This document shows, one piece after another, positions 4,745 to 61,029 of a stretch of 64,000 bases of DNA; position 1 is the first letter of the stretch; every line of letters starts with the position of its first letter. This stretch comes from Pseudodesulfovibrio sp. zrk46. Lineage in GTDB: Bacteria; Desulfobacterota; Desulfovibrionia; Desulfovibrionales; Desulfovibrionaceae. The notes beneath the pieces were generated by a model that saw only the letters and a program-made list of their open reading frames with translations, was not told where the DNA came from and did no database searches. Both the position numbers and the translations under genes were made by a program. The stretch lies in NCBI RefSeq assembly GCF_012516435.1, contig NZ_CP051216.1, forward strand, positions 1,738,001 through 1,802,000, in the 5' to 3' direction.

Positions 4745-4807
4745 CACCGAGTCTCTTCCTCGTCCTTGGAGGATCGGCGACTTCCTCTCTTCTCCCCGAC
4801 ACCGTGA

Positions 4808-4927
4808 GGCTTTGTAGAGTGGTGCAGCTGCAAGGCGACAGGCACGATTTGAGCGGAGGCGTAGCAACGCTACGTCGAGCATCAAATCGCGCCTGGCAAC
4901 GCCGCAGATGCGCCGCTATACAAAGCC
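4808..4927 (-). repeat. 120-bp hairpin element, copy A1 (downstream of cydB)
   Basis: This is one of four full-length 120-bp copies, the others being at 32046, 38778 and 50853. Read on the minus strand it starts GGCTTTGTATAGCGG and ends CTCTACAAAGCC, so its ends pair. An inner stem pairs AGGCGCGATTTGA with TCAAATCGTGCCT, and the apex is GTAGC-GTT-GCTAC. Where other copies have different stem bases, both arms change together. It lies directly behind the mirrored arm of the cydB terminator palindrome, and its outer flank continues with a conserved GTGTCGGGGAGA-type tract. Confidence 0.85.
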
Positions 4928-4932
4928 GTGTA

Positions 4933-5000
4933 GCTCACCCACAACGCAATAAAAAAGCCCGGCTGATTAGCCGGGCTTTTCAATTGCGTTGTGGGTGAGC
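4933..5000 (-). terminator. cydAB terminator nested in a mirrored palindrome
   Basis: The core stem is GCCCGGC/GCCGGGC with T-runs on both sides (AAAAGCCCGGC...GCCGGGCTTTTTT), a strong bidirectional intrinsic terminator. The 18 bp between the cydB stop codon and the core (4983-5000) are repeated exactly, inverted, on the far side (4933-4950). The palindrome therefore begins on the first base after the stop codon and ends against repeat A1. Confidence 0.85.
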
Positions 5001-13645: not shown

Positions 13646-13668
13646 TGTACTCTTTCATAACAACGTAA

Positions 13669-13749
13669 GGCTTTGGAGGGTGGTGCAGCGCTACGGTGAG
13701 GATTTACTCGTCGCCCGGTAACGCAGCAGATGCGCCGCTATACAAAGCC
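13669..13749 (-). repeat. Hairpin element copy A2, internally deleted (downstream of ppiD)
   Basis: On the minus strand the element begins GGCTTTGTATAGCGGCG and runs through the first arm to CACCGTAGC, then jumps to GCTGCACCACCCTCCAAAGCC. Compared with the 120-bp copies, 39 bp of the apical loop and second arm are missing, with the junction at a repeated AGC. The outer ends can still pair (CTTTGTA with TCCAAAG, partly). It sits behind the ppiD terminator in the same orientation as the other copies. Confidence 0.75.
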
Positions 13750-13753
13750 GGGG

Positions 13754-13815
13754 CAAACACCAACAAAAAAGCCCTTGCCTGCAGATGCAGACAAGGGCTT
13801 TTTTATTGGCGTTTG
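13754..13815 (-). terminator. ppiD terminator nested in a mirrored palindrome
   Basis: The core is AAAAAAGCCCTTG / CAAGGGCTTTTTT, a bidirectional intrinsic terminator. The arms extend outward for about 25 bp in total with three mismatches (CCAAACGCCAAT on the gene side, GCAAACACCAAC on the far side). The palindrome spans most of the stretch between the ppiD stop codon and repeat A2. Confidence 0.8.
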
Positions 13816-18098: not shown

Positions 18099-18202
18099 CA
18101 AAAAGTTTAGGAAAGGGGATGGGATGGGGGTCTGGGGGAAGGGAAGGGGAAGAACCCTTTACAAAGGGTTTTCTCCTTCCCTTCCCCCAGCCGCCGGAGG
18201 CA
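18099..18202 (-). repeat. Family-B terminator repeat, minus orientation
   Basis: The long stem CTGGGGGAAGGGAAGG... pairs with ...CCTTCCCTTCCCCCAG (18132-18190). An inner AACCCTTT/AAAGGGTT hairpin forms the tip, and a CTAAACTTTTTG run follows on the minus strand. It lies directly after the gene at 18207-18530 and is probably its terminator. The GCCGCCGGAGGC edge is shared with copies at 53000 and 60874. Confidence 0.8.
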
Positions 18203-31966: not shown

Positions 31967-32040
31967 CGAACCGAAATTGTACGCCAAGGGGCCCGCGCTT
32001 TTCGCGCGGGCCCCTTTTTTTGCGTCCAATTTTCGGTTCG
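31967..32040 (+). terminator. qmoD terminator nested in a mirrored palindrome
   Basis: The core GGGGCCCGCG/CGCGGGCCCC with TTTTTTT is a strong terminator. The arms continue outward: CGAACCGAAATTGTACGC on the gene side and GCGTCCAATTTTCGGTTCG on the far side pair with two mismatches. It begins 4 bp after the qmoD stop codon and ends 5 bp before repeat A3. Confidence 0.85.
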
Positions 32041-32045
32041 GTGGC

Positions 32046-32165
32046 GGCTTGCGATAGCGGCGTATCTGCGTCGTTGCCGAGTACAAAGCTGTCCTCGCCG
32101 TAGCTGGGCTACGACTGCGGTAACTTTGCACTCGGCGCCTAGCAGCTACACCACTCTCGCAAGTC
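32046..32165 (+). repeat. 120-bp hairpin element, copy A3 (downstream of qmoD)
   Basis: The ends GGCTTGCGATAG and CTCTCGCAAGTC pair, and the inner stem pairs GAGTACAAAG with CTTTGCACTC. The apex is GTAGC-TGG-GCTAC. The inner stem has a different sequence from copies A1, A4 and A5 but is changed on both arms, which is good evidence for selection on pairing. A GGTCGGGGAGGGG flank follows. Confidence 0.85.
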
Positions 32166-32267
32166 TTGGGTGGTCGGGGAGGGGAGTGTGGTTCTTTGCG
32201 GGGCGGTGTGCGGTAACTTGCTGTTTGTGGCGGTGCCACAAAGGCGCGTGGAGTGCTATGAAAGAAG

Positions 32268-38719: not shown

Positions 38720-38777
38720 CAGCGGGTTAACGCACACAGTACCGAGTCGAGGGCTCTTTCTTTCCCTGACAACGTGA

Positions 38778-38897
38778 GGCTTGTGAGAGTGGTGAAGCTG
38801 CTAGGCGCCGGGTGTGATTCACCCGGAGGCGTAGCCTAGCTACGGTGAGGATTGAATCATGCCCGGCAACGACGCAGATGCGCCGCTATCGCAAGCC
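38778..38897 (-). repeat. 120-bp hairpin element, copy A4
   Basis: Read on the minus strand it starts GGCTTGCGATAGCGG and ends CTCTCACAAGCC. The inner stem pairs GGGCATGATTCA with TGAATCACACCC with two mismatches, and the apex is GTAGC-TAG-GCTAC. The outer flank TCACGTTGTCAGGGAAAG matches the other copies. It follows the terminator of the gene at 38965 in the standard orientation, but here the terminator has no mirrored arms. Confidence 0.85.
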
Positions 38898-38910
38898 GGG
38901 GCACAAAAGA

Positions 38911-38945
38911 GCCCCCTTGGATTGCTTGCAGCAATCCAAGGGGGC
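38911..38945 (-). terminator. Terminator of the gene at 38965-39423
   Basis: GCCCCCTTGGATTGCTTG pairs with CAGCAATCCAAGGGGGC, with TCTTTT after it on the minus strand. It is 19 bp after the stop codon. Unlike the terminators next to A1, A2, A3 and A5, its flanks are not inverted copies of each other. Confidence 0.88.
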
Positions 38946-50307: not shown

Positions 50308-50775
50308 ATGAAGAAGCTGATTTTGCTCGCAATCGCCATGTGCCTTATCTTTGCCTGGGGTTGCTCCAAGAAAGTTAAGACAGAACCCGAAGTGGTTGTA
50401 GTCGAAGAAAAGGAAGTCATCGTTGAAGAAAAGGTCGTCACCGACCCCATGCAGGTCTACAAGGCCGAGTACGATGCACTGCCCGTGTCCCACACCGTAA
50501 CCAAGGGTGAATGCCTGTGGTGGATCTCTGAGTACAAGCACGTGTACAACGATCCCTTCATGTGGCCCCTTATTTTCAAGGCTAACCGTGACCAGATCAA
50601 GAATCCTGATCTGATCTACCCCGGTCAGCAGTTCGAGATCCCCCGCTACGGCTTCGATCTCGAAGACGTCAAGGCATCCCGCAAGGAAGCCGGCGCACCT
50701 TGGCAGGCTCTCGAGCCCGGTCAGGACGCCATGCTGCCTGCAGAGATGCGTGCTGCTCTCGGCTACTCTTTCTAG
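50308..50775 (+). CDS. LysM-domain lipoprotein
   Basis: The 155-residue product has a lipoprotein signal with lipobox FAWGC (Cys19), a short Val/Glu-rich linker (EVVVVEEKEVIVEEKVV), and one LysM domain (about residues 62-113: SHTVTKGECLWWISE to IYPGQQFEIP). LysM binds peptidoglycan. The C-terminal 40 residues lack a catalytic domain, so it is probably a wall-tethering or structural lipoprotein. GAGGAGG precedes the ATG. A perfect 31-bp palindromic terminator follows, starting on the first base after the stop codon. Confidence 0.88.
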   Translation: MKKLILLAIAMCLIFAWGCSKKVKTEPEVVVVEEKEVIVEEKVVTDPMQVYKAEYDALPVSHTVTKGECLWWISEYKHVYNDPFMWPLIFKANRDQIKNPDLIYPGQQFEIPRYGFDLEDVKASRKEAGAPWQALEPGQDAMLPAEMRAALGYSF

Positions 50776-50847
50776 CCTCGAAATCACGACATAAAAAAAG
50801 GGCCGTTCCTCTTGGGACGGCCCTTTTTTTATGTCGTGATTTCGAGG
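50776..50847 (+). terminator. LysM lipoprotein terminator nested in a perfect 31-bp mirrored palindrome
   Basis: The core AAAAAAAGGGCCGT / ACGGCCCTTTTTTT is a strong terminator. The outer part CCTCGAAATCACGACAT is repeated exactly inverted as ATGTCGTGATTTCGAGG. Together 50776-50806 and 50817-50847 are perfect reverse complements. The palindrome begins on the first base after the stop codon and ends 5 bp before repeat A5. Confidence 0.9.
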
Positions 50848-50852
50848 GTGCC

Positions 50853-50972
50853 GGCTTCGGAGAGCGGCGCATCCGCGTCGTTGCCGGGCGCGATTCAATC
50901 CTCACCGTAGCTGGGCTACGCCTGCGGGTGAATCGTGCCCGTCGCCTAGCGGCTGCACCACTCTCCGAAGCC
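50853..50972 (+). repeat. 120-bp hairpin element, copy A5 (downstream of the LysM gene)
   Basis: The ends GGCTTCGGAGAG and CTCTCCGAAGCC are perfectly complementary. The inner stem pairs GGGCGCGATTCA with TGAATCGTGCCC, and the apex is GTAGC-TGG-GCTAC. The flank TCAAGGTGTCGGGGAGAG follows. Of the five copies this has the best outer pairing. Confidence 0.88.
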
Positions 50973-51195
50973 TCAAGGTGTCGGGGAGAGTGGACGGGGC
51001 GTCGCCTTTTGGCTCCTTGTTGGGGGAGAGTGCTTCGTAAGGTGGGGGCGGGTGAAGGCTTCGTTTGGAGGAGCGGCAAAAGGCGCTTTGCTGTTTTGCC
51101 TTTTGGGGATGCCGAGGAATTTTAGGTATTGGTCTGATTTATTTGATTTTTATAGGCGGATTGCTTTTCTTTGATTTCCGGTACATGCTTTGAAG
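50973..51195. other. Purine-rich tail of repeat A5 and gap before the AraC gene
   Basis: Just after the element come GGGGAGAG-type tracts, then a GGCAAAAGGCG / TTTTGCC hairpin near 51073-51102. There is no reading frame I would support. The promoter of the AraC-type gene should lie at the AT-rich end (51122-51180), but no clear hexamers are visible. Confidence 0.4.
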
Positions 51196-52997: not shown

Positions 52998-53158
52998 AAA
53001 AGTTTAGGAAAAGGAGGGGATGGGGGTCTATCTCTGCTGTCGACATCTCTAAGACCGAACAAGTTCGGCCTAAGAGCTGACGCGGGGGAAGGGGAGGAAA
53101 GAACCCTTTTCAAAGGGTTTTTCCTCCCCTTCCCCCAGCCGCCGGAGGCTGCCGCAAA
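52998..53158 (-). repeat. Family-B terminator repeat carrying insert D
   Basis: The minus-strand copy runs from GCCTCCGGCGGCTGGGGGAA through an AACCC..GGGTT hairpin to CCTAAACTTTTT. At 53027-53082 it is interrupted by a segment of about 56 bp starting TCTATCTCTGCTGTCGACATC and containing a CCGAAC/GTTCGG hairpin. The related copy at 60874 lacks this insert. Confidence 0.75.
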
Positions 53159-53169
53159 ACGGCAAAAAG

Positions 53170-53208
53170 AAATCCGCCCTGACCGACGACAGTCGATCAG
53201 GGCGGATT
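53170..53208 (-). terminator. tyrS terminator
   Basis: AATCCGCCCTGA pairs with TCAGGGCGGATT, and TTCTTTTTG follows on the minus strand. Nearly the same stem (AATCCGCCCTG/CAGGGCGGATT) follows the acyl-CoA synthetase at 60992. Confidence 0.88.
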
Positions 53209-58401: not shown

Positions 58402-58588
58402 GAAAAATCCCCGGGAGGCCGTGTTACCTGTTTGTTTAGAACCTGGTATGTCCAGGTGGGCACGGCTCGCGCACCTTTAGGCTTCCCGATTCGAGTCGGG
58501 CCTGCTCACCGGCACGCTGGAGCGCTAACCCTTTGTCAGAGCATTGGTTCAATAACACTCCGGGCAATCACAAACGCCCCAGGGTAAT
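58402..58588 (-). ncRNA. ssrS: 6S RNA
   Basis: The minus strand between zapA and rny has the 6S RNA signature: a closing stem made from CCCTGGGGC at the 5' end and GCCTCCCGGGG at the 3' end; a central region with CGGTGAGCAGGCCCG, a GATTCGAGTCGGG-type hairpin and AAGCCTAAAGGTGC; then CCCACCTGGACATACCAGG. These match E. coli 6S RNA segment by segment (GGTGAGCAT, GAAGCCTTAAA, TTCACCTTGAACCAAGGG). The position next to zapA is the conserved genomic location. 6S RNA binds sigma70 RNA polymerase as a promoter mimic in stationary phase. The ends are estimates within a few bases. Confidence 0.88.
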
Positions 58589-60873: not shown

Positions 60874-60989
60874 AAAAGTTTAGGAAAAGGAGGGGATGGG
60901 GGGCTGGGGGAAGGGGAGGAAAGAACCCTTTCCAAAGGGTTTTTCCTCCCCTTCTCCCAGCCGCCGGAGGCAGCCGCAAAGCGGCAAAA
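60874..60989 (-). repeat. Family-B terminator repeat without insert
   Basis: The stem CTGGGGGAAGGGGAGG... pairs with ...CCTCCCCTTCTCCCAG (60903-60960) with an AACCCTTT/AAAGGG tip. CCTAAACTTTTTAT follows on the minus strand. It is nearly identical to 52998-53158 apart from the insert there. Confidence 0.78.
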
Positions 60990-60991
60990 GA

Positions 60992-61029
60992 AATCCGCCC
61001 TGACCGACGAAAGTCGGACAGGGCGGATT
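60992..61029 (-). terminator. Acyl-CoA synthetase terminator
   Basis: AATCCGCCCTG pairs with CAGGGCGGATT around CCGACGAAAGTCGGA, itself a small CCGAC/GTCGG hairpin. TTCTTTTG follows on the minus strand. Confidence 0.85.

Follow-up and report, generated by a model that had tools for sequence, protein, structure and literature searches.

Mirrored gene ends beside a palindromic repeat element, E, are a real regularity across the genus Pseudodesulfovibrio: the 3' UTR between a gene's stop codon and its terminator is repeated, inverted, past the terminator, and this copy runs up to E. The reading that we hold to be slightly more probable than not is that recurrent fold-back (template-switch) copying at the DNA level keeps remaking the far arm from the gene's own 3' UTR in inverted form, with the terminator hairpin as anchor and E as boundary.

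Mirrored gene ends in the window

The window is the whole stretch of DNA analysed: 64,000 nucleotides (G000:C1:1738001-1802000) from a genome of 4.08 Mb. Past the LysM gene the order is the stop codon TAG (50773-50775), CCTCGAAATCACGACATAAAAAAAGGGCCG..., the reverse complement of this segment, GTGCC, and then the GGCTT of E at 50853. The near arm (50776..50809, plus strand), which begins on the first base past TAG, holds the 3' UTR and the 5' half of the terminator, while the far arm (50814..50847, plus strand) holds the 3' half, the T run and the inverted 3' UTR copy. The outer 31 bp are perfectly paired and 5 nt separate the far-arm end from GGCTT; the adjoining E copy (50850..50973, plus strand; G000:C1:1788850-1788973) is an imperfect palindrome that scores 145 bits with the covariance model. 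A sequence-only reading of the window had described just this 31-bp repeat, from the base after the stop to 5 nt before the element, and the coordinates bear it out, as they do the outer arms of 18 out of 18 bp at cydB, again from the base after the stop (4933..5000, minus strand; arms 4933-4964 and 4969-5000; E at 4807..4930, minus strand, 1742807-1742930 in the genome).

The same layout had been proposed for ppiD, where the palindrome is confirmed, and for qmoD, a weaker case. At ppiD (13754..13815, minus strand) the arms are mirrored (13754-13783 and 13786-13815, 30 nt each, 27 of 30 positions or 90% complementary) and start at stop+8 rather than stop+1, next to a shortened E copy (13668..13752, minus strand; 1751668-1751752 in the genome). 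The palindrome at qmoD (31967..32040, plus strand; E at 32043..32166, plus strand, 1770043-1770166 in the genome) is mirrored from stop+5 and is the weakest of the four because of its gaps and mismatches. As had also been noted, arm sequences differ between the loci, and a fifth locus carries the element with no mirrored arms: the hairpin at 38911..38945 (minus strand; E at 38777..38900, minus strand, 1776777-1776900 in the genome) has no mirrored arms past its 16-bp stem and serves as a negative example.

The element E

E is an imperfect palindrome of ~125 bp. Searches with a covariance model built from ten copies found ~48 copies in G000 and tens in several congeners; carriers are Pseudodesulfovibrio and one related Desulfovibrionaceae bin. 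All five copies in the window point their GGCTTNNNATAGCGGCGCATCTGC end toward the end of the gene. Copies occupy three kinds of site: directly past a stop codon (mode 0-1 nt), past a terminator, and, in 9 candidates, just before the Shine-Dalgarno site of a gene that runs leftward. Copies of the last kind in G000 (e.g. 757906, 770225, 1721750 and 1899037) are flush with the Shine-Dalgarno site and so mirror the stop-flush placement of others; several are of a subtype with TTGAAAAA-type ends. Mismatches within E, counted on the gene-sense strand, comprise 364 A·C against 115 G·T: it is therefore the complementary strand that folds with wobble pairs.

E resembles REP elements in being a short palindrome with many intergenic copies. 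No E copies flank the genome's sole Y1 (RAYT-type) transposase gene, at G000:2412136, the nearest lying ~48 kb away, and mobilization of E by this transposase was rejected on that ground. Nearly all copies are common to the near-identical genomes G033 and G034, and no empty site is available among such genomes that would mark a recent gain. At the gathering score, Rfam reports only 6S RNA in the window (RF00013, 92.6 bits; 58404-58588, minus strand) and nothing at the palindromes or at E; a literature search for palindromic repeats in Desulfovibrio or Pseudodesulfovibrio found no relevant paper.

Long outer arms are confined to terminators beside E

E flanks were compared with 18 control stretches of 20 kb from the same genome (G000), whose terminators were merged to give n=128; a terminator was considered E-adjacent if it lay <=55 nt upstream of E (n=11 in G000). 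An outward arm-extension score of >=11 was reached by 5 of the 11 E-adjacent terminators and by none of the 128 controls (p = 1.1e-6). Long extensions are enriched next to the element, a test that the sequence-only reading had proposed, and its refuting outcome – equally long arms at terminators lacking the element – was not found at the 128 controls. A looser measure (>=10 nt paired beyond the T run) gave 6/11 against 11/154 (p = 1.6e-4). The sequence pattern for E that was used alongside this measure overlooked the copy at G010 and the truncated ones at G018 and G040; three mirrored loci of its E-less group thus do have E or a remnant. Long hairpins flush with E (score >=14) are found on its left side in 5 of 49 cases, on its right side in 0 of 49, and at 0 of 720 random positions. 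Chance as the origin of the long outer arms was rejected, there being none among the 128 controls; chance and ordinary terminators are excluded as the cause of the mirrored arms. The pairing of element and palindrome that had been claimed is a genuine link, albeit a partial one: arms accompany only about half of the elements that follow a terminator, and many copies lie directly past a stop codon with no terminator in the gap.

A preference of E for inserting beside terminators that already have long arms is very improbable. E does often directly follow terminators, and hairpin-seeking elements are known in general; against this stand the absence of long arms from all 128 control terminators, E-less orthologues devoid of arms, and arms at qmoD that have changed since E arrived. 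The E-less orthologues likewise contradict the notion of pre-existing palindromes as E targets. A further scheme, in which E originally adjoined the stop and an inverted duplication of the UTR came later, was discarded: it predicts the opposite orientation of E past the far arm, which is not seen.

Orthologous gene ends across the genus

Both the link of the arms to E and the layout recur in several other Pseudodesulfovibrio species; what does not generalize from the layout first described is the start at stop+1, which is typical and not universal. Orthologues of the LysM gene are mirrored solely in G000 and G006, both of which have E and whose arms differ (G018 has E and lacks arms), and among cydB orthologues only G000 is mirrored and only G000 was seen with E. 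At qmoD, E is present in 16 Pseudodesulfovibrio species, nearly all of them mirrored (G038 partly); G039 and G041 have long arms from stop+1 with at most one wobble mismatch and a sequence unrelated to the G000 arms. Additional mirrored loci are G000:687855 and G000:1352390, G011:C27, G006:2868523, 1673199, 1611812 and 2412796, and L223, L227, L231 and L232 in G034. The same gene may thus carry different arms in different species: this is true of qmoD, of LysM, of G011:C27 and L231, and of G000:687855 and L223.

Arms are kept at loci where E is truncated (G018, G040) or lost (G006). In G045 E is lost and the far arm eroded; in G007 both the far arm and E are lost, the tail of E is kept, and so is the near arm, which is identical to that of G010. 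In the LysM, cydB and qmoD 3' flanks compared, no orthologue free of any trace of E is mirrored, and hence mirrored orthologues that never had the element, a second outcome named as refuting, were not found.

Near and far arms track each other

For each near arm, complementarity to its own partner was compared with complementarity to the far arms that other species have at that locus. The own mean at qmoD is 12.0 compared to a cross mean of 6.2 (p = 5e-5), and 14.7 compared to 6.1 with one sequence per arm type (p = 5e-5), the test shortening the arm of q_G041, which has a T run inside; at the other loci the values are 11.5 and 4.2 (p = 5e-5). Own complementarity being far above cross complementarity, pairing is kept while sequence turns over. 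Between the near-identical G034 and G033, a perfect 27-bp arm pair (L227) corresponds to one with three uncompensated changes in G033 (L245), and no compensated pair was seen in this comparison. Arms that are perfect in some lineages and decayed in others look like the product of episodic resetting followed by decay. A template switch that rewrites one arm toward a perfect repeat may leave such a pattern, in which arms track within species and are perfect or decayed by lineage; G033 and G034, which have nearly all E sites in common, differ by few changes. Since E at qmoD is old (16 species, with remnants elsewhere) and the arms there have turned over and remain paired, either copying recurs or pairing is maintained long after the arrival of E.

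Base pairing in RNA and in DNA

Read on the gene strand, the terminators themselves are of the intrinsic type: a stem rich in G+C leads into a run of T. Gene-strand mismatches within this core and T run number 14 G·T and 1 A·C, as expected of selected RNA pairing; the outer arms have 6 G·T and 8 A·C alongside 409 Watson-Crick pairs. These numbers are low and in part reflect common descent; the poor alignments of G018_C62, G018_C26 and q_G038 contribute little to them. As the outer arms show no G·T excess, pairing in sense RNA is probably not what maintains them.

This bears on the possibility that pairing is selected as such: that a functional helix, in DNA or in read-through RNA, joins stop codon and E and is kept by compensatory point mutations. 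Covariation of the arms over the genus is what such selection would leave. The outer arms nevertheless lack the excess of G·T over A·C that the core of the same hairpins displays, decay in G033 is uncompensated, and the far arm lies past the T run, so that terminated RNA does not contain it; moreover, long perfect arms that are wholly different between species would require many double changes. Overall we regard selection for pairing as rather unlikely, while recognizing that the borders of the arms speak for it.

The border at the stop codon

At roughly one locus in two the near arm starts precisely at stop+1; the palindrome at G000:373736 is the only one that extends through the stop into coding sequence (CCGCTAG...CTAGCGG). 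The first base pair past the stop is C-G, T-A or G-C depending on the species; two qmoD groups have a mismatched inner arm and still pair over the outermost 6-9 bp; and where no hairpin intervenes E abuts the stop – three points in favor of selection for pairing. Together, the borders at stop codons and Shine-Dalgarno sites and the surviving outermost pairs favor either an origin where stop codon meets UTR or a maintained helix that links the stop to E. Because these observations do not fit fold-back copying, our confidence in it is held at the level given at the outset. Two E-flush hairpins (G006:C1:2156230 and G000:C1:1287558) have the stop codon inside the far arm, a near arm made of coding sequence, and no terminator.

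The stop+1 border and the flush joining of E would also be accounted for by one-step reverse transcription, in which a 3' UTR fragment with its 5' end at the stop primes itself from the terminator hairpin, the enzyme jumps to E RNA, and the product integrates. The strand of E that folds best is the one complementary to the gene, and a retron-type reverse transcriptase is encoded, albeit by a single gene whose tie to E is conjectural. Such a process leaves unexplained why arms stay matched after E has arrived; the palindrome at G000:373736 passes the stop into coding sequence, and no recent insertion of E is seen, copies being almost all common to near-identical species. We consider this route improbable: it had been suggested as one form of fold-back synthesis, and nothing found points specifically to it.

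Proposed fold-back copying at the terminator hairpin

Fold-back copying at the DNA level would proceed as follows. During DNA synthesis the nascent strand would fold back on the terminator hairpin, copy the near arm outward, and rejoin the template at the foot of E; E, itself a palindrome, may stall synthesis and mark the outer limit, and between copying events the arms would decay by ordinary mutation. From sequence comparisons we infer template switching as the copying step, E as the stall or anchor point, and a direction from near to far arm. The direction is suggested by the near arm of LysM in G006, which holds CGCACA missing from the far arm, and by near arms that persist unaltered despite loss of the far arm and E (G007, G045).

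Fold-back copying agrees with the link to E, the complementarity of own partners, the different arms at the same genes, the mismatch types, the decay at L245, the erosion in G045 and the retained near arm of G007. Against it, nothing inherent in such copying would halt it at a stop codon, and yet a start at stop+1 is the usual case; the outermost 6-9 bp kept in qmoD around a mismatched inner arm are the opposite of what inside-out copying predicts; and the genus-wide persistence of the qmoD arms also fits selection for pairing. The evidence supports the earlier view that far arms repeat the local 3' UTR in inverted form and are tied to the element. The earlier proposal that fold-back synthesis accompanied gain of the element fits as regards copying at the terminator hairpin, and is not supported as regards a single event, the qmoD arms having turned over and remained paired after E arrived. 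A more speculative extension, which we think unlikely, is that E acts in cis to make the adjoining terminator self-copying, driving recurrent fold-back conversion of the 3' UTR with the stop codon as boundary, such that the borders of translation units mark DNA copying.

Relation to known systems

The reading that suits mirrored gene ends best is palindrome formation by template switching, in a variant linked to a repeat; this class of mechanism is known, and we know of no earlier coupling of it to a repeat element. Fold-back template switching at quasipalindromes is documented in E. coli, where imperfect inverted repeats are perfected by copying one arm via a folded nascent strand (PMC7202029); those are mutational events at reporter genes or natural hot spots, whereas here whole 3' UTRs are mirrored with a border at the stop codon, genus-wide and confined to E-adjacent terminators. 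One study argues that template switching creates RNA hairpins and maintains them over evolution, giving perfect stems and multi-base compensatory changes with no point-by-point compensation (PMC8794818). That work concerns RNA genes with selected stems, unlike the present outer arms, which lie beyond the terminator and have no sense-RNA wobble bias. Similar events have been tied to high transcription in yeast (PMC3820800). With REP elements (PMC12306157) E shares a short imperfect palindrome, tens of intergenic copies and, for many copies, a position few nt from a stop; E differs in its ~125 bp and in a Y1 transposase gene that it does not flank. The G+C-rich core stem, the A and T runs and the RNA-type wobble bias are those of intrinsic (Rho-independent) terminators, from which these hairpins depart in arms that continue 10-20 bp past the T run and are bordered by the stop codon at one end and by E at the opposite end; control terminators do not do this. 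We know of no REP with mirrored host 3' UTRs.

Covariation between the arms of a long, perfect hairpin is usually taken as proof of selected RNA structure. The arms described here covary outside the terminator, have no RNA wobble bias, and depend on a neighboring repeat: covariation alone can mislead in 3' UTRs. Arms linked to E thus offer a natural setting in which to ask how frequently hairpins owe their origin and upkeep to template switching instead of selection, and the sharp border at the stop codon is a regularity testable in 36 genomes of one genus.

Further palindromes and repeats

Partly mirrored arms are found beside E at a terminator past the apparent end of a 5S rRNA gene, where there is no stop codon (L208, Pseudodesulfovibrio MC-06). 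Past qmoD in G002 (L187), E is followed by a tail (GAGAGTTGCTGTTTGGGGGGC...GCCCCCAAAGGCGCTCC) that has been multiplied into a tandem array with units of ~55 nt. The window also contains a second family of palindromic repeats, unrelated to E, at 60899-60965, 18127-18195 and 53084-53136 (GGGGGAAGGGGAGGAAAGAACCCTT / AAAGGGTT...), and the palindromes at 53171-53208 and 60992-61029 have AATCCGCCCTGACCGAC in common.
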